DNA of 64,000 nt. It comes from Scleromatobacter humisilvae. GTDB taxonomy: Bacteria; Pseudomonadota; Gammaproteobacteria; Burkholderiales; Burkholderiaceae_C. The stretch covers positions 1 to 64,000 of the forward strand of contig NZ_JAJLJH010000004.1 in assembly GCF_023231945.1 (NCBI RefSeq), in the 5' to 3' direction. Of this stretch, positions 2,409 through 44,367 are shown piece after piece. The notes beneath the pieces are model-generated. The model was not told the DNA's origin. It ran no database searches and saw only the letters and a program-made list of their open reading frames with translations. Position numbers and translations under genes: made by a program. Within the stretch, counting starts at the first letter, position 1, and the number at the start of each line of letters is the position of its first letter.

Positions 2409-3200
2409 ATGTCCCCCTGCAACCGAACCACGGGCCTTCGTCGCAGTGCGGCCCTCGCGGCGCTGTGCCTCCTGGCAGGCGTCGCCGCCGCGGCGCCCGC
2501 CGCATCGGCCGCCAGCGCCGAACCGGCCGGCACCGATGCGATCTTCCGCCCCGTGTTCACGACGCCGCAGGGCGCGCTGGAGGCGGGCACGGTCTTCGTC
2601 GCCAGGCTGGACCGATGCAAGGAGCCCGTCCTGCTGACCGCGAAGCACCTGTTCGGCCCGGGCGGCGGCCTGGCCGAAGCCATGGCGCCGGACGACATCC
2701 GCCACGGCGTCTCGCGTGTCGAGCTCACGGGCTTCGGACGCGGCGCCAAGCACATGCTGTTCGAGCTCGGAAGCCTCACGCCCGACGGGTCGCAGGCCTG
2801 CTGCCAGGGCCAGGCCATGCACGACGTGGGCGACGTCGCGGCGTTCACGGCTCCGGAGCGTCTCGGCTCTGTCGCCCTGCAGCTCGCGACCGCGCCCGTC
2901 GTGCCTGGACAACACGTGACGCTGCTCGCCGAAGTGCTCGCCCCCGCGAACGCCGGCCTGCGGCACGGCGCGGTCGTGCTGGGCATGCACGACGGTTTCC
3001 TGATGTACAAGTTCGACGACCCGACGCTGAACCTGCGCGCCACCAGCGGCGCGCCGGTCGTCGACGATGCGGGCAGGGTCGTGGCGATCAACCTGTCGAG
3101 CGGGCACACGCTGCGCAGCGACCCCGCCGCGATGGTCGGCGGCGGCAATCCGGTCGCCGCGTGGGGTGACGCGGTCGGCGCGCTCTGCCGTTCGCACTGA
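2409..3200 (+). CDS. Secreted trypsin-like serine peptidase domain protein
   Basis: A 263-residue protein with a Sec-type signal (basic RR, then a long Ala/Leu core ending near ASAAS), so probably periplasmic or secreted. The body looks like a compact trypsin-like peptidase: LLTAKHLF resembles the catalytic-His TAxH segment, and RATSGAPVVDDAGRVVAIN resembles the catalytic-Ser SGxPVxxxxGxVVGI segment. The Asp of the triad cannot be placed with confidence. Two adjacent cysteines (QACCQG) may form disulfides. A GTG at 2382 would add nine residues without improving the signal peptide, so the ATG at 2409 is preferred. Substrate unknown. Confidence 0.6.
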   Translation: MSPCNRTTGLRRSAALAALCLLAGVAAAAPAASAASAEPAGTDAIFRPVFTTPQGALEAGTVFVARLDRCKEPVLLTAKHLFGPGGGLAEAMAPDDIRHGVSRVELTGFGRGAKHMLFELGSLTPDGSQACCQGQAMHDVGDVAAFTAPERLGSVALQLATAPVVPGQHVTLLAEVLAPANAGLRHGAVVLGMHDGFLMYKFDDPTLNLRATSGAPVVDDAGRVVAINLSSGHTLRSDPAAMVGGGNPVAAWGDAVGALCRSH

Positions 3201-3291
3201 GCCCCCGAGAACGACGGCACGATCTCGACCCACGCCGCGCGATCGGTGATGCAAACTCACCGCATCGCATCTCGAACCCACCCTGCCCAAC

Positions 3292-4023
3292 ATGTACTTC
3301 GAGATCCCGGGTTCCAACGTGCGCGTGCTCGGCGCGATGCACATGGTTCCAGCCGGCACGCTGGCGGCGCCGCCCTGGGCGATCGAGGCCTGCGACTGGT
3401 GCGAGGCGCTCGTGCACGAGCATTCGAACGACGACGCCGCCTGGATGGTGCGCGCCGACCGGCCGCTCAGCAGCGTGCTCGCCGCCGACACCTGGCACGC
3501 GATCGAGGCCGCCGTCGCCAGCGAGCGACGGCGCGCCGTCCTCGAGGGCCTTCGCCCCTGGGCCGCGGCGATGCACCTGACCGTCTGGGCCCAGCAGCTC
3601 GAACTCGGAGCCGAGCCCACGGTCCTGCAACGCGGCCTGGCCGACGGCAAGCCGCTCGACGTGCTGGAGACCGTCGCGGATGTGCGTGCCGCCTTCGATT
3701 CGGTGCCGCTGCGCGAGGTCGAGAAGGTCATGATTGCCTGCCTGCACGACATGCCGCAGGCACAAGACCGCCTGCTGCGCCTGCACGCCGCGTGGCTGGC
3801 CGGCGATCGCGCAGCGATGCACGCCAGCGCGGCCGACTCGCCGATGGGCGCCTCCGCCGCGATGTGGGAGGCCGGCGTCCTGCGCCGCAATCGGGCGTGG
3901 GGGCTGAAGCTGCAGCCGTTGCTGAAGACGGACAAGCGCACGCTGGTCGTGGTGGGCCCGCTGCACCTGTGCGGGCCCGGCAGCCTGGAGGCGTGCCTGG
4001 GCGTGAGCTTCCGGCGCGTCTGA
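3292..4023 (+). CDS. TraB/GumN family protein
   Basis: A 243-residue protein with the two signature histidine segments of the TraB/GumN superfamily: an N-terminal GAMHMVP (GxxH) and a C-terminal VVVGPLHLCGPGSLEA (GxxHLxGxxG). An intervening DVLETVADV segment matches the conserved LET motif. Family members are proposed metal-dependent hydrolases or peptidases, some tied to plasmid pheromone shutdown or polysaccharide loci, but bacterial functions are poorly defined. Unlike many relatives it has no signal peptide, so it is probably cytoplasmic. It is the last gene of a rightward row and converges on the PEP-CTERM gene. Confidence 0.65.
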   Translation: MYFEIPGSNVRVLGAMHMVPAGTLAAPPWAIEACDWCEALVHEHSNDDAAWMVRADRPLSSVLAADTWHAIEAAVASERRRAVLEGLRPWAAAMHLTVWAQQLELGAEPTVLQRGLADGKPLDVLETVADVRAAFDSVPLREVEKVMIACLHDMPQAQDRLLRLHAAWLAGDRAAMHASAADSPMGASAAMWEAGVLRRNRAWGLKLQPLLKTDKRTLVVVGPLHLCGPGSLEACLGVSFRRV

Positions 4024-4059
4024 GCCTTGGCAAGCCCGCGTCGGGAGCAGCGAGCAGGA

Positions 4060-4950
4060 TCAGCGCGACTGTCGCCGACGCAAGCCAACGCCCACGGCAA
4101 GCAGCCCCGCCATCAGGAGCGCGTAGCCACTCGGCTCCGGTACCGGCGAGGTGGTGATCGGGCCCGTTCCGCCGGCATCGGAGGCGTGGAGGTTCGTCAG
4201 ATAGACCGCGCTGTCCAGTTCCTGGTCGTTGACATCGCCAACTTCAAAGTACAACGTGTGATCGCCGGCTGCCAACGTCCCCGTCGTCGTGGTCAGCACG
4301 CCGATCAGGCCCTGGGGGCTCGTGAAAGCCGTGCTCGTGTCCGCAGTCGTCAGCGAGGATGCAAAGCTGCTTCCAACCTGCACGGGATGGCCGGTGGCGT
4401 CGAAGACGATCTGATTGCTCGCCGACGTGCCGTCGAGAAAGGTCATGAACGCGTCGGTGAAGTCGTCCACGAAGTCGGGATACTCCATCGAGCCGAACAC
4501 GAAGGAGAAAGCAACGGCGCTCGCGGTGGGAAGTGTGAAGTCGACTCTGAGAGCCGCGACATCGAAGCCCGCCGTGAAATTCGTGACGTTCGCAGCACCG
4601 TAGGCGTTGTATTCGCTGGTGCCGCCAGAACCTTCTTCCGTGCTGAGGACGTCGCCGGGGATGGGATGTTCCGTGTCCTTGACATTGCCCGACGACAGCA
4701 CGACGCCGTTGCCAAGCGTGATCACGGACCCATTGAAGCCGGAGTAGGTGCCGAACTGGGCGGCAGCACCATTGGTCACGGTCGAGGAGTTGATCGTCAA
4801 GCCGGAGCCTTGCAGCGCGCCTCCGAGCACCGTCGACGACGTGGATTGCGTGACGCTGATGCCGGCTTGCGCCGACTGACTCACGAGGCTTGCGAACAGA
4901 AAGGCGGCCGAGGCCAAAGCCAACGGTGCAGGATTGTGGAATGGGCGCAT
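4060..4950 (-). CDS. PEP-CTERM exported protein with choice-of-anchor L-like domain
   Basis: A 296-residue exported protein with a signal peptide (core ALASAAFLFASL, cleavage near SQAQA/GIS) and a C-terminal PEP-CTERM sorting signal: VPEPSGYALLMAGLLAVGVG followed by RRRQSR, i.e. a PEP motif, one hydrophobic helix and a basic tail. The middle, with SGFNGSVITLGNGVVLSSGNV, FVFGSMEYPDFVDDFTDAF and a VGDVNDQELDSAVYL stretch, resembles the choice-of-anchor L domain that accompanies several surface-anchor signals. Exosortase (EpsH/XrtA-type) would process it; none is in the window. Such proteins are linked to exopolysaccharide and floc formation. A very strong AGGAGGT site precedes the ATG. Confidence 0.85.
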   Translation of the reverse strand: MRPFHNPAPLALASAAFLFASLVSQSAQAGISVTQSTSSTVLGGALQGSGLTINSSTVTNGAAAQFGTYSGFNGSVITLGNGVVLSSGNVKDTEHPIPGDVLSTEEGSGGTSEYNAYGAANVTNFTAGFDVAALRVDFTLPTASAVAFSFVFGSMEYPDFVDDFTDAFMTFLDGTSASNQIVFDATGHPVQVGSSFASSLTTADTSTAFTSPQGLIGVLTTTTGTLAAGDHTLYFEVGDVNDQELDSAVYLTNLHASDAGGTGPITTSPVPEPSGYALLMAGLLAVGVGLRRRQSR

Positions 4951-5262: not shown

Positions 5263-5350
5263 TGGTGCCCCGGGGCGGACTCGAACCGCCATGCCCGTGA
5301 AGGCGCGGGATTTTAAGTCCCGAGTGTCTGACCAATTTCACCACCGGGGC
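5263..5350 (-). tRNA. tRNA-Leu (anticodon UAA)
   Basis: Reads on the minus strand as an 88-nt class II tRNA with a long variable arm. The acceptor arms GCCCCGG and CCGGGGC pair fully, followed by discriminator A and an encoded CCA. The anticodon loop sequence CTTAAAA gives anticodon UAA (codon UUA). The T arm contains GGTTCGAGTCC-type sequence. It stands alone, with no terminator recognised downstream. Confidence 0.96.
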
Positions 5351-25818: not shown

Positions 25819-25905
25819 TGGTGCGCGGGGCGGGACTCGAACCCGCACGCCGGTGAAGGCGTCAGGACCTAAACCTGGTGCGTCTACCAATTTCGCCACC
25901 CGCGC
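25819..25905 (-). tRNA. tRNA-Leu (anticodon UAG)
   Basis: 87-nt class II tRNA on the minus strand. Acceptor arms GCGCGGG and CCCGCGC pair fully, the anticodon loop TTTAGGT gives UAG, there is a long variable arm, and discriminator A plus encoded CCA. It ends 25 nt before the tig start and is probably processed from the same primary transcript or has its own promoter further up. Confidence 0.96.
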
Positions 25906-35725: not shown

Positions 35726-36112
35726 TTGTTTCAGTCTAAGGCAAAGGAAAAATCCATGCAAGATCAAAAGCTTGCGTGGATTTCCTCAACCGGACGTCGA
35801 ACGAGCGGGGCCGCTTGCAAAAAGGTCGTTTCGTCATGTGACAGCCCCGCAAAGCTGTCTAACGCAACGACCCCGGTTTCGGCTGACGCAGGGACGAAAA
35901 ATCGGGAGATCGGATCCACGCCTGGACCGACGCGCCCGCCAGGGCAAGGCGCATCTTCAGGTCTGTTACGTGGATTTTCGGCTTCCGCGACGATTCCCAA
36001 GGCTCGAAAAGCGGGCGTTTGACACGCTATTCGGCCCTGGCGGGTGACATAAGGTAAGCACGGGCCCGTCCGCGCTTCCCAACGCGACAGGCCTCTACTG
36101 ACTTACCCGGAG
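35726..36112. other. Intergenic region between the pbpG-like gene and leuA
   Basis: About 390 bases without a supportable gene. The left side should hold the pbpG-like promoter; a possible pair TTGCAT/TAGACT with a 17-bp spacer reads toward it. The right side holds the 3' flank of leuA, where I see no clear terminator. The rightward open frames here have GC-shadow composition and no ribosome site. Confidence 0.5.
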
Positions 36113-37816
36113 TCAGGCGACGGCTTGCGCGGCGCCCTGCTCCGCCGACACCGGATTCGTGCCGCGCGAGGTCGCCGACAGCACGGCCAGCAGCGTCGCG
36201 CGCACGATGTTGGCGTCGATGCCGACGCCGAACACCGGCGCTGCGTCGCCGACGCGCACCTCGACGTAGGCCGCCGCGCGCGCCTGCGCGCCGCCGCCCA
36301 TCGAGTGCTCGTGGTAGTTCAGCACCTTGACCGGCACGCCCGCCGCGCGCGACAGCCCGTCGACGAAGGCGTCCACCGGCCCGTTGCCCGCGCCGTCGAA
36401 GGCCATGCGGCGGCCCATCACGGCGGCCTCGGCGGCGACGCGCACGCGGCCGTCGCCGATGTCGGTCTGGGTCAGGTCGGACAGCGTGACGCTGCCTTCG
36501 GCAAGGCGGTATTCAGACTCGAAGATCTTCCAAATATCGGAGGCCGTCACTTCGCGGCCTTGCGCGTCCATCACGGCCTGCACGACCTGGCTGAACTCGA
36601 TCTGCAGGCGGCGCGGCAGTTCCAGCCCGTACTCGGACTCGAGCAGGTAGGCGATGCCGCCCTTGCCCGACTGGCTGTTGACGCGAATGATCGCCTCGTA
36701 GCTGCGGCCCAGGTCCTTCGGATCGATCGGCAGGTACGGCATCTCCCACACGTCGCCTTCGCGGCGGGCGGCGAACGCCTTCTTGATCGCGTCCTGGTGC
36801 GAGCCGGAGAACGACGTGAAGACGAGGTCGCCGACGTACGGATGGCGCGGGTGCACCGGCAGCTGGTTGCAGTACTCGACGACGCGGCGGATCTCGTCGA
36901 TGTCGGAGAAGTCGAGGCCCGGGTCGACGCCCTGCGTGTAGAGGTTCAGCGCGATGTTGACGATGTCGACGTTGCCGGTGCGCTCGCCGTTGCCGAACAG
37001 GCAGCCCTCGACGCGGTCGGCACCGGCCATCATCGCCAGTTCCGCGGTGGCCGTGCCGGTGCCTCGGTCGTTGTGCGGGTGGGCCGAGATCACGATGGAA
37101 TCGCGGCGCGCGATGTTGCGGCACGTCCACTCGATCATGTCGGCGTAGATGTTGGGCGTCGAATGCTCCACCGTCGTCGGCAGGTTGATGATGCACGTGC
37201 GCTCGGGCGTCGGCTGCCAGACCTCGGTGACGGCGTCGATCACGCGGCGCGACACCTCGAGTTCGGTGTCGGAGAACATCTCCGGCGAGTATTCGAAGCG
37301 CCAGTCGGTGCCCGCCTGCTTGTCGGCGAGTTCCTTGATGAGGCGCGCGTGGCTGCTGGCCAGTTCGATGACGCCCTCGACGTCCACGCCCAGCACGACC
37401 TTGCGCATGATGGGCGCGGTCGCGTTGTACAGATGCATGATGCATTTCTTCGCGCCGGCCACGGCCTCGAAGGTGCGGCGGATCAGGTGCTCGCGCGCGG
37501 GCGTCAGCACCTGGATCTGCACGTCGTCGGGGATCAGGTTGTCCTCGATCAGCTTGCGCACGAAATCGAAATCGGTCTGCGAGGCCGACGGGAAACCGAT
37601 CTCGATCTCCTTGAAGCCCACCCGGATCAGCGTCTCGAACATGCGCAGCTTGCGCTCGGCGTCCATCGGCTCGATCAGCGCCTGGTTGCCGTCGCGCAGG
37701 TCGGAGCTGCACCACACGGGCGGCTTCGTCAGCTGGGCGTCGGGCCACGTGCGGTCGGTCAGGCGCACCGGTGCGACGGGACGGTACTTGGTGGCGGGGT
37801 TCTTGAGCATGGTCAT
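36113..37816 (-). CDS. leuA: 2-isopropylmalate synthase
   Basis: A 567-residue enzyme condensing 2-ketoisovalerate with acetyl-CoA, the committed step of leucine synthesis. It is the long (yeast/actinobacterial-like) LeuA form: the N-terminal TIM barrel shows [16 protein letters not shown] (metal Asp), [17 protein letters not shown] (HxH metal ligands) and [16 protein letters not shown] linker and the C-terminal LeuA regulatory domain (about residues 430-560) bind leucine for feedback inhibition. GGAG lies 8 nt before the ATG. A leader peptide and terminator precede it (separate entries), indicating transcription attenuation. Confidence 0.97.
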
Positions 37817-37866
37817 CGCGGTTCTCCAGGAAGATTTGTTCGGCTGGCAACGACGCGGGAAATGAA

Positions 37867-37898
37867 AACGGCCCGCTGCGTTGCGCTAGCGGGCCGTT
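37867..37898 (-). terminator. Attenuator terminator in the leuA leader
   Basis: Perfect 11-bp stem AACGGCCCGCT/AGCGGGCCGTT (37867-37877, 37888-37898) with a 10-nt loop, followed on the minus strand by TTTTCATTT. It lies between the leader peptide stop and the leuA ribosome site, so it would stop transcription before leuA when the leader is translated without stalling. Confidence 0.85.
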
Positions 37899-37926
37899 GA
37901 TCGGAATTCGGTTCAGACGTGACTGA

Positions 37927-37986
37927 TCAATGCACCCGCGGTACTCCGGCTAGGGATAGCGTAATCAGCGCAATTCGGGACGTCAT
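37927..37986 (-). CDS. leuA leader peptide (19 aa)
   Basis: The short frame encodes MTSRIALITLSLAGVPRVH, of which seven residues are Leu, Ile or Val. Several of these use codons rare in such a GC-rich genome: two CTA (Leu), two ATT (Ile) and one GTA (Val), along with CGA and GGA. A TATATT -10 box ends about 10 nt before the ATG, leaving a very short 5' end. The terminator hairpin begins about 30 nt after the stop. This is the arrangement of classical amino-acid attenuators, in which ribosome stalling at Leu/Ile/Val codons when charged tRNA is scarce lets transcription proceed into leuA. Confidence 0.8.
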   Translation of the reverse strand: MTSRIALITLSLAGVPRVH

Positions 37987-37999
37987 GCAAACGAATATA

Positions 38000-38005
38000 G
38001 CACGG
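38000..38005 (-). promoter_or_regulatory. -10 box of the leuA leader transcript
   Basis: TATATT on the minus strand, about 13 nt upstream of the leader-peptide ATG, in an AT-rich patch. No convincing -35 hexamer at 17 bp (CCCACA region), so the promoter may be weak or activator-dependent. Position is accurate to within a base or two. Confidence 0.5.
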
Positions 38006-38071
38006 TGATTCCGGCTTGTGGGAACGAATTGTTCGCGTTGGACGAAGGCTTGCTTCGCGGCGCCGAATCTT

Positions 38072-38713
38072 TCACTGGCGCTGGAACGCGACGCGCACGC
38101 CCAGCGACACGAAGATCACGCCGATCAGCTTGCCCTTCCAGCGCTGCAGCCAGCCCATGCGCGAGACCAGTCGGCCCAGCGGGCGCATCGCGAAGACCAG
38201 CATCGTGCTCCAGCCCAGGCTCATCACCGCGAAGACGAGGCCCAGGATCAGGAACTGCGCCAGCACGTGGCCGTGGTCGGCGTGCACGAACTGCGGCATG
38301 AAGGCGAGGAAGAACAGCGCGGTCTTCGGATTGAGCAACTCGGCCGGCACCGCCTGCCAGAAGGCGCGCGCGGGCGAGATCGCGGCAGCCGCCGATGCCG
38401 GTGCGGCCGATGTCGAGGGTGCTGCGGGCTTCTCGAGCAAGGCGCGCACGCCCAGCCACAACAGGTAGCCCGCGCCGCACAGCTTGACGACGCTGAACGC
38501 CAGCGAGGACGTCATCAGCAGCGCGGACAGCCCGATGGCCGCCAGCAGCGTGTGCACGAGATCGCCGGTCGCGATGCCGGCGCCGGTGGCGATGCCGATG
38601 GGGCGGCCGCCCTGCGCGGTGCGCGTCAGCACCAGCAGCACGGCCGGCCCGGGCACGGCGAAGAGTCCGAGGACGACGACCACGAAGGTCGCGAGGGTCA
38701 CGAAGTCGATCAA
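38072..38713 (-). CDS. LysE/RhtB family amino acid exporter
   Basis: A 213-residue inner-membrane exporter with six hydrophobic helices. The N-terminal ATFVVVVLGLFAVPGPAVLLVLTRTAQGGRPIGIATGAGIATGDLVHT is the family signature (PGP motif, then G-rich). The loop between helices 3 and 4 is an Ala/Pro/Ser-rich insert (EKPAAPSTSAAPASAAAAI). The start is a TTG at 38713. Placed between pssA and leuA, it might export branched-chain amino acids or homoserine/threonine, but the substrate is not deducible. Confidence 0.85.
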   Translation of the reverse strand: MIDFVTLATFVVVVLGLFAVPGPAVLLVLTRTAQGGRPIGIATGAGIATGDLVHTLLAAIGLSALLMTSSLAFSVVKLCGAGYLLWLGVRALLEKPAAPSTSAAPASAAAAISPARAFWQAVPAELLNPKTALFFLAFMPQFVHADHGHVLAQFLILGLVFAVMSLGWSTMLVFAMRPLGRLVSRMGWLQRWKGKLIGVIFVSLGVRVAFQRQ

Positions 38714-38798
38714 GGCAGCACCGCCGCGGGAGTTCGAATGCCGTCGATTGAATCAGATCCGGCGCGCGCGCGTGCGCGCGCGGGCGGCGACCCTGCGC

Positions 38799-39635
38799 CT
38801 AGCGGTGCAACCCGACCTCGTCGGGCTCGTCGGTGGACAGCGCGATCGCGCTCACCGGCCGCCCCTTCGCGCGCTTGTAGGCGTAGACGAAGTAGCCCGA
38901 CACGCCGTACATGCAGAAGATCGCGAAGATCATGCGCGCCGGGTACAGGTTGATGATGCCGATGGCCAGCGCGATCAGCACGATCACGATGAAGGGCACC
39001 GAGCGCTTCAGGCTCAGGTCCTTGAAGCTGTAGAACGGCACGTTGACGACCATCGTCACGCCCGCATAGAACGTGGTGGCGGCTGCGGCCCAGGCCAGCA
39101 CGAGGTCGCCGTTGACGTCGGTGTTGGACGTGTCGACCACCACCCAGATGAAGCCGATCACCAGCGCCGCGGCGGCCGGGCTCGGCAGGCCCTGGAAGTA
39201 GCGCTTGTCGACCACCGCCAGGTTGGTATTGAAGCGCGCCAGGCGCAGCGCGGCGCACGCGCAGTAGAAGAACGCGATGCCCCAGCCGGCCTTGCCGAGG
39301 CCCTTGAGCGCCCATTCGTAGACGATCAGCGCCGGCGCGGCGCCGAAGCTGACCATGTCGGACAGGCTGTCCATCTCGGCGCCGAACGCGCTCTGCGTGT
39401 TGGTCATGCGGGCGACGCGGCCGTCCAGGCTGTCCAGCACCATCGCGCAGAAGACGCCATAGCACGACAGCACGTAGTGGCCGTTCATCGCCATCACGAT
39501 CGCGTAGAAGCCGCCGAACAGCGCCGCCAGCGTGAACAGGTTCGGCAGGATGTAGACGCCCTTGCGGCGCGGGCGGCGTGCCGCATGGGCGTCGTCGCCG
39601 TCGTCCTCGTCTTGGACCGGGATCAGGTCGTTCAT
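38799..39635 (-). CDS. pssA: CDP-diacylglycerol-serine O-phosphatidyltransferase
   Basis: A 278-residue membrane enzyme making phosphatidylserine from CDP-diacylglycerol and serine, the route to phosphatidylethanolamine. The CDP-alcohol phosphotransferase motif DSLDGRVARMTNTQSAFG...EMDSLSD (DxxDGxxAR-G-DxxxD) is complete, and about eight hydrophobic helices follow, with a hydrophilic C-terminus. The start MNDLIPVQDEDDGDD is taken because the upstream 26 codons lack conservation. A conserved neighbour of ilvC in this order, but a terminator between ilvC and pssA suggests a separate or read-through transcript. Confidence 0.94.
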   Translation of the reverse strand: MNDLIPVQDEDDGDDAHAARRPRRKGVYILPNLFTLAALFGGFYAIVMAMNGHYVLSCYGVFCAMVLDSLDGRVARMTNTQSAFGAEMDSLSDMVSFGAAPALIVYEWALKGLGKAGWGIAFFYCACAALRLARFNTNLAVVDKRYFQGLPSPAAAALVIGFIWVVVDTSNTDVNGDLVLAWAAAATTFYAGVTMVVNVPFYSFKDLSLKRSVPFIVIVLIALAIGIINLYPARMIFAIFCMYGVSGYFVYAYKRAKGRPVSAIALSTDEPDEVGLHR

Positions 39636-43498: not shown

Positions 43499-43797
43499 TG
43501 GTGCTCCTCTTCTCGCCCTCGTGAGGCGGATTCAGAACCATAAGATCGAAACGTGCCGGTGCCCGCGTTCGGGTCGGCCTTCAGACCAGCTCGCATTTGT
43601 GCGAAGCACCATTATTGCACCGGCCATCCCGTTTTTGCTCGGCAATCGCACCCGATTCGTGCCGAACCGCCCTGTTCGTCGCCCGAAACCCACGGCGACG
43701 CGACAGCGCCACGTGTCGTCCGCGTTGCCCGACTGTGGCGCGATGACATAATCCCGCCGCGTCATCAGACGGGGCGCGCCGCCGCTTTCAGCCCACC
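43499..43797. other. Divergent region between ilvB and the sigma factor gene
   Basis: About 300 bases with the two divergent promoters and no gene. On the minus strand, CAATAAT (about 43612-43618) is a possible -10 for ilvB, without a good -35. I looked for a leader peptide plus terminator like that of leuA and did not find one. Confidence 0.45.
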
Positions 43798-44367
43798 TTG
43801 GCCACCGACAAAGAACTTTCAGACTTCCTCAAGAGCGTCGAGAAACGCGCGTTCAAGCGCACGGCCTTCGCCGTGCGCGACGACGATTCCGCTCTGGACA
43901 TCGTGCAGGATTCGATGATCCGTCTGGCCGAGAAGTACGTCGACCGGCCCGCGGCCGAGTTGCCGTTGCTGTTCCAGCGCATCCTGTCCAACGCGACGAT
44001 GGACTGGTTCCGGCGCCAGAAGGTGCGCAACGCGGTCGTCCACAACTTCTCGGAGTTCGGCGGCAGCAGCGAAGAGGACGGAGAATTCGACATTCTCGAG
44101 ATGCTCGATGGCATCGAAGGGAACGTTGGCACCGAAAGTGCATCAGATTCCGTATCGCGGGACCAAATCCTTCAGTTGATTGAACAACAGGTCGGTGAGC
44201 TTCCCGCGCGTCAACGCGAAGCCTTCCTGCTGCGTTACTGGGAGGAATTGGACGTTGCAGAGACCGCATCCGTGATGGGATGCTCGGAAGGTAGCGTCAA
44301 GACGCATTGCTCCCGCGCCGTCCACGCGCTGGCCAAGGCGTTGAAAGCCAAGGGAATCGCACCATGA
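43798..44367 (+). CDS. ECF-type RNA polymerase sigma factor
   Basis: A 189-residue sigma-70 family factor of the short ECF kind. Region 2 spans AFKRTAFAVRDDDSALDIVQDSMIRLAEKYVD...RILSNATMDWFRRQKVR, and region 4 LIEQQVGELPARQREAFLLRYWEELDVAETASVMGCSEGSVKTHCSRAVHAL with a clear helix-turn-helix. The linker (about residues 85-120) is acidic. The start is a TTG at 43798; no ATG precedes region 2. It heads a four-gene operon in which each stop overlaps the next ATG. No anti-sigma factor is recognisable unless the DUF3619 membrane protein plays that role. Confidence 0.9.
   Translation: MATDKELSDFLKSVEKRAFKRTAFAVRDDDSALDIVQDSMIRLAEKYVDRPAAELPLLFQRILSNATMDWFRRQKVRNAVVHNFSEFGGSSEEDGEFDILEMLDGIEGNVGTESASDSVSRDQILQLIEQQVGELPARQREAFLLRYWEELDVAETASVMGCSEGSVKTHCSRAVHALAKALKAKGIAP

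Follow-up and report, generated by a model that had tools for sequence, protein, structure and literature searches.

Upstream of leuA in the 64,000-nucleotide stretch of DNA analysed here (the window), the minus strand carries a -10-like box, a short open reading frame (ORF) with rare codons and a hairpin, which raises the question of whether this arrangement controls leuA by attenuation and, if so, which amino acid it senses. An earlier reading made from the letters alone (the sequence-only reading) had proposed a leader-peptide attenuator of leuA built on rare Leu codons. Its codon counts, its 11-bp stem and its coordinates all proved correct, and the 13 nt that it gave to the ATG hold when counted from the start of the TATATT box, the ATG lying 7 nt past the box.

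Table 1. Features of the leuA leader in the window, in order of transcription.
Feature	Positions	Strand	Basis
-10 box TATATT, preceded by TGC (extended -10), no clear -35	37994..37999	-	sequence
Leader ORF, 19 codons, MTSRIALITLSLAGVPRVH then stop	37927..37986	-	sequence and conservation
Candidate control region: CTA codon 10 (37957-37959), TCC, CTA codon 12 (37951-37953)	37951..37959	-	
Predicted antiterminator strand 2: GCGGGT (37934-37939) and TTGATC (37925-37930), last codons and stop of the ORF	37925..37939	-	
Predicted antiterminator strand 3: GATCAACGGCCCGC, takes in the terminator 5' arm	37889..37902	-	
Intrinsic terminator: perfect 11-bp stem AACGGCCCGCT/AGCGGGCCGTT (arms 37888-37898 and 37867-37877, 10-nt loop 37878-37887), then TTCATTT	37867..37898	-	
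Post-terminator segment GCGTCGTTGC, partner of terminator loop GCAACG (37879-37884)	37847..37856	-	
leuA, ribosome site GGAG 37824-37827	36113..37816	-	NCBIfam PRK03739

The gene behind the leader encodes the long form of LeuA (2-isopropylmalate synthase, 567 aa; 876.6 bits against the PRK03739 model, cut-off 455), and the LeuA search gave no other match in the genome. The leader ORF holds 3 Leu, 2 Ile and 2 Val among its 19 codons, including the rare codons CTA (two), ATT (two) and GTA (one). CTA occurs in none of the 2599 codons of seven window genes (leuA and six neighbours), and of the 425 frames in the window, counted over both strands, that start with ATG and run for 10-45 codons, 3 contain at least two CTA, the leader ORF being one of the three. 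Generic promoter and terminator scans returned nothing within 36000-38800, the former because the leader has no good -35 box and the latter because its 10-nt loop exceeds the scan's loop limit of 8. Folding of the whole window leader gave z = -2.15, with 5 of 200 shuffles equally good, which is modest taken alone. The arrangement is nevertheless confirmed as real and well beyond chance, and it is conservation that decides this.

On the same strand, ilvB, ilvH, ilvC, pssA and a gene for an RhtB/LeuE-like exporter lie upstream of leuA. The last of these, an amino-acid exporter gene at 38072-38713 (minus strand) between pssA and the leader, scores 120.7 bits against the LeuE model, under the cut-off of 165. 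The end of this gene is also present in locus L002, and in L003 the end of pssA directly precedes the leader; the exporter gene may be an insertion. Ahead of ilvB (43499-44100, minus strand), no CTA-bearing frame of 12-60 codons with an ATG or GTG start was found, and hence no leader like that of leuA is seen there.

In order to measure how far the arrangement extends, 150 leuA upstream regions were collected through LeuA, namely the window, 80 from named genomes, 29 from a sample of the family and 40 obtained by coordinates. A leader was defined by fixed criteria that were blind to codon content: a TAnnnT box 5-10 nt ahead of an ATG or GTG, an ORF of 12-30 codons, and a stop codon 5-90 nt ahead of a GCCCG-type terminator. 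Leaders so defined were found in 63 of the 150 regions: the window, 6 of the 80 regions L002-L081, most of which belong to other classes of bacteria, all 29 of L082-L110, 8 of the 20 in L111-L130 and 19 of the 20 in L131-L150. The 12 regions without a leader in L111-L130 (L118-L129) precede leuA copies 53-62% identical to the LeuA of the window, and the 87 regions without one are mostly from other bacterial classes or from diverged leuA paralogues, together with L138, which lies inside the family. A fresh set of 40 loci, which are the best-ranked 40 of 46 LeuA matches with at least 62% identity rather than a random draw, contained the leader in every case, and 18 of them come from genera outside the earlier family sample. 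The leader is found before both long and short leuA forms, and its ORF has 16-24 codons (median 18). Carriers include Leptothrix discophora and Lampropedia cohaerens, and the family that carries it we take to be GTDB's Burkholderiaceae. This putative device is conserved far beyond the genus.

A covariance model built from 23 leaders identified one strong place in the genome, at leuA (111 bits, the next match reaching 20 bits). Among 30 relatives, full-length matches at E < 1e-4 were obtained in 16 of 18 family genomes, that of the window included, and in 1 of 12 outside the family (G111, locus L173), where a leader with CTA again precedes leuA. In 100 genomes of the order, the model matched at E <= 0.01 in 35, mostly with its terminator part only. 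A second match in a congener (G100), whose tabulated contamination is 5%, is tentatively put down to contamination after inspection of the nearby sequence; a further second match was seen in G102:C48. Rfam returned four matches at gathering score in the window, all tRNAs and no leader family, and a search of 37780-38080 with E up to 10 gave three matches, none of them a leader family; Leu_leader, presumably the name of one such Rfam family, is among those unmatched. The window also contains two tRNA-Leu genes on the minus strand, one with anticodon TAG (25819-25905), which reads CTA, and one with anticodon TAA (5263-5350).

The position of the ORF relative to its putative promoter is narrowly constrained. 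The criteria permitted 5-10 nt between the -10 box and the start codon, and the spacing was 6-8 nt in 59 of the 63 leaders and in 35 of the 40 fresh ones; 60 of the 63 and 37 of the 40 have a TG ahead of the box. Because of this spacing a leaderless mRNA is predicted: transcription would begin at the start codon, and the leader ORF is probably translated from a transcript without a 5' untranslated region.

The codon content of these leaders, which had played no part in their selection, points to leucine. CTA accounts for 141 of the 1134 codons in the 63 leaders against 1 of 19975 in 36 LeuA genes from the same loci; every leader has at least one CTA and 58 have at least two. In the fresh leaders CTA makes up 100 of 704 codons, with at least two in all 40. 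Both the frame and its rare Leu codons, whose conservation in relatives had been proposed as a check, are conserved, and the claim of an attenuator with rare Leu codons is supported. The sequence-only reading had further taken the mix of Leu, Ile and Val in the window leader as a sign of multivalent branched-chain control, with ATT and GTA as additional control codons and leuA answering to all three amino acids. The composition of the window leader and its rare ATT and GTA codons speak for such control, as does the share of ATT among Ile codons (20/43 in leaders versus 128/1115 in LeuA genes). Across the 63 leaders, however, Ile and Val are not enriched: Leu makes up 264 of 1134 codons, whereas Ile (43, or 3.8%) and Val (41, or 3.6%) fall below their frequencies in LeuA genes (5.6% and 8.7%), 31 leaders have no Ile (32 have any) and 34 have no Val (29 have any). 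In the close relatives L002 and L003 (93% LeuA identity), Leu7 (CTG7) is replaced by Pro and both CTA codons are kept, and in L003 Val15 (GTA15) has become Glu. From the CTA bias together with Ile and Val below the level of LeuA genes, the control amino acid is therefore taken to be leucine, and multivalent control is very improbable.

We then turn to the RNA structures that such a leader would have to switch between. The window terminator folds at -24.9 kcal/mol, and its T-tract is short and interrupted. In an alignment of 42 leaders, nine stem pairs are formed in all 360 ungapped cells, with compensatory change at two pairs. A competing structure is predicted between the end of the ORF and the terminator 5' arm, which in the window consists of GCGGGT:GCCCGC and TTGATC:GATCAA (-17.0 kcal/mol versus -24.9 for the terminator). 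In the 61 of 63 leaders that were measured, the GGG core of strand 2 starts a median of 12 nt downstream of the C of the last CTA. Given the size of its footprint, a ribosome held at this codon should have its front edge at about this point. No clear CGGG core was found in L086 and L095.

A helix of at least 5 bp between the ORF end and the terminator arm can be drawn in 58 of the 63 leaders, and in 61 the best helix begins within the ORF. The mean helix score was 15.13 against 13.63 (sd 0.32) with shuffled ORF ends, none of 200 shuffles reaching the observed value. The score falls little when partners are exchanged between leaders (300 swaps, mean 14.86 and maximum 15.16, the latter above the observed 15.13), since the core is nearly invariant, and for the same reason the covariation of the antiterminator rests on one pair flanking the core. 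In the 61 of 63 leaders scored, this pair is A-T in 33, G-C in 7, G-T in 8, A-C in none and otherwise mismatched in 13, and in one class (21 of 23 scored) it is A-T in 8 and G-C in 6, with neither A-C nor G-T and 7 other mismatches; these counts overstate the significance and make p values too small, because the sequences are related by descent. L097, counted as A-T, carries a mismatch within the core. The fresh set (38 of 40 scored: A-T 27, G-C 1, G-T 1, mismatched 9) adds little. The antiterminator is likely formed by the ORF-end strand and the terminator 5' arm, and would begin just outside a ribosome stalled on the last CTA codon. The different pairing that had been suggested, between CTAGC and GCTAG, exists in 1 of the 63 leaders, the window alone, and is abandoned here.

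A second alternative is that the peptide itself arrests the ribosome through a C-terminal part of the GVPR or PHGRRR type, and so senses something other than charged tRNA-Leu. Within each class the C-terminal part is indeed alike, reading G-V/E-P-R-V/A-R/H or P-H/D/N-G-R-R-R in many leaders, but no obvious peptide motif is common to both classes; what they share is a GGG-containing core able to pair with the terminator arm and, as a coding feature, the CTA bias, and we regard peptide-mediated arrest as very improbable. It is scarcely credible that the hairpin simply terminates the upstream pssA/transporter operon, that the ORF arose by chance and that leuA has its promoter further downstream: inter-operon terminators are common, and the element does follow pssA in relatives and a transporter gene in the window, but a -10-like box at a fixed distance, a CTA-rich ORF and a pairing strand are all conserved, and about 50 nt separate the terminator from the leuA start (median 48.5, 42 leaders).

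We conclude that the leuA leader is very probably a leucine-specific, ribosome-mediated transcription attenuator. This reading is carried by conservation, codon bias, spacing, terminator covariation and a limited covariation of the antiterminator, from which we infer the transcription start, the stalling and the switching as follows. The transcript would begin on the A of the ORF's ATG, give or take one or two bases, and a ribosome would load on the leaderless mRNA. When leucine is scarce, charged tRNA-Leu(UAG) would run short and the ribosome would stall at CTA codons 10 or 12, leaving free the strand that begins some 12-14 nt past the stall, in the last ORF codons; this strand would then pair with the terminator 5' arm before the 3' arm exists, and RNA polymerase would continue into leuA. 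When leucine is plentiful, a ribosome reaching the stop codon would mask strand 2 and the terminator would form. Once polymerase has read through, a further pairing would become available to the terminator loop, its partner being a segment some 25 nt ahead of the leuA ATG.

This last pairing lies outside the termination decision, since the segment is transcribed only after read-through. In the window the loop:segment helix comprises 6 bp and a bulge (p = 0.17 alone), and it reaches 7 bp in L002 and L003. Taken over the 63 leaders, the mean best score was 20.1 against 15.5 with swapped partners (200 swaps, maximum 16.7), and 40 leaders are singly below p = 0.05. The excess was seen in the 44 long-LeuA leaders, whose terminator loops measure 9-16 nt (21.4 versus 16.3, none of 300 swaps reaching), in the 19 short-LeuA leaders (17.0 versus 14.9, 1 of 300 reaching) and in the fresh set (22.5 versus 17.2, sd 0.63, none of 500 reaching), where 37 of 40 leaders form at least 7 bp. 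The 3' end of the segment lies at a median of 25 nt before the leuA ATG (10-90% range 22-35; 42 of the 44 leaders, in which the ATG was recognised).

Covariation was examined in an alignment of 42 leaders built without structure, the structure being read off the same sequences. In it 74.0% of the cells of the helix pair. Both partners have changed in 35 cells, compared with 11.4 (sd 5.3) after shuffling; none of 500 shuffles reached 35, and versions slid along the alignment gave at most 13. The number of pairs with two-sided change in this alignment (6) is not unusual, being reached by 79 of 500 shuffles, and the RNAalifold consensus does not contain the helix. As judged from the changes on both sides, the predicted loop:segment helix covaries among relatives.

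Three ideas about this helix and its segment were considered and rejected. As a second terminator it would call for T residues, and a T4 stands directly behind it in just 9 of the 44 long-LeuA and 3 of the 19 short-LeuA leaders. Pairing of the segment with the leuA start, located by a rough start pattern, gave no clear signal against swaps, the observed score being reached by 6 of 100 swaps for long-LeuA, 71 for short-LeuA, 45 for TGA-stop and 6 for TAG-stop leaders. Finally, antiterminator and loop helix together do not make up the most stable read-through fold, as only 9 of 44 leaders have this combination within 3 kcal/mol of the minimum obtained without constraints. We know of no attenuator in which the terminator loop pairs with the region before a downstream ribosome site. 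A second, post-transcriptional layer in which the unusually long terminator loop would serve as a conserved pairing strand and, in cis or in trans, couple the product of attenuation to leuA translation is a tentative idea that we consider rather unlikely. If the cis version were true, the fold of the read-through mRNA would set leuA translation or stability; in the trans version, the loop of the terminated leader RNA would pair with the read-through leuA mRNA.

The proposed attenuator resembles known systems in part. Like leuL of Escherichia coli and Salmonella, it has a short leader ORF with Leu codons and attenuation before leuA (available text of PMC6123439 and PMC1183508). The Salmonella leu leader has three CUA control codons (same parts of PMC6123439 and PMC1183508), and changing its CUA control codons to CUG lowered the sensitivity of the attenuator (Carter et al., as given in PMC1183508). 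It differs from leuL in that the E. coli leader has 28 codons (available text of PMC6123439) against 16-24 in a probably leaderless transcript here, in that the predicted antiterminator strand sits in the last ORF codons, with the terminator arm itself as its direct partner, and in the further covarying helix behind the terminator, with no match to an Rfam leader family. The trpL transcript of Sinorhizobium meliloti likewise begins directly at the leader ATG and gives a leaderless leader peptide (available text of PMC7298713), the start being predicted here from the spacing; trpL, however, senses tryptophan before trpE(G) and is a different RNA, and its terminated leader RNA and peptide act in trans. 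The LEU element of Actinobacteria also has a leader ORF with Leu codons upstream of leuA (available part of PMC1262725), but it is predicted to form a pseudoknot in which the run of Leu codons pairs with the leuA ribosome site. The window leader has a terminator and a predicted antiterminator instead.

Among the literature matches listed, in a search whose coverage leaves out most subscription journals, none dealt with attenuation of leuA in this family. Vitreschak et al. 2004 reportedly predicted amino-acid attenuators of proteobacteria by comparison, and those predictions may already include members of this leader family. The leader would represent a concrete means of controlling leuA throughout a large family of bacteria, and it is not annotated by any Rfam family. 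Because it is compact, with a median of 18 codons, a probably leaderless transcript and one strand that would be masked directly, codon-by-codon stalling tests should be easy.

Two further types of leader were noticed in the course of this survey. By eye, a different design is present upstream of diverged leuA paralogues in L122, L123, L124, L126, L127 and L128, where several CTA codons are followed by GGCCGGGGTC (GGCCGGGGTT in L128), complementary to a downstream stretch resembling GACCCCGGCC, with a CCCCTG...CAGGGG-like hairpin close by; it looks like an independent leucine attenuator. In the more distant betaproteobacterium of locus L008, a Leu-rich frame, MVSNTTVLTVILSSLLLLAGLLLRPART, with runs of CTG and CTT lies ahead of leuA (match 3001-4656) and its ATG follows a TATACT box by 6 nt; the leaderless design may thus be wider and employ other Leu codons.
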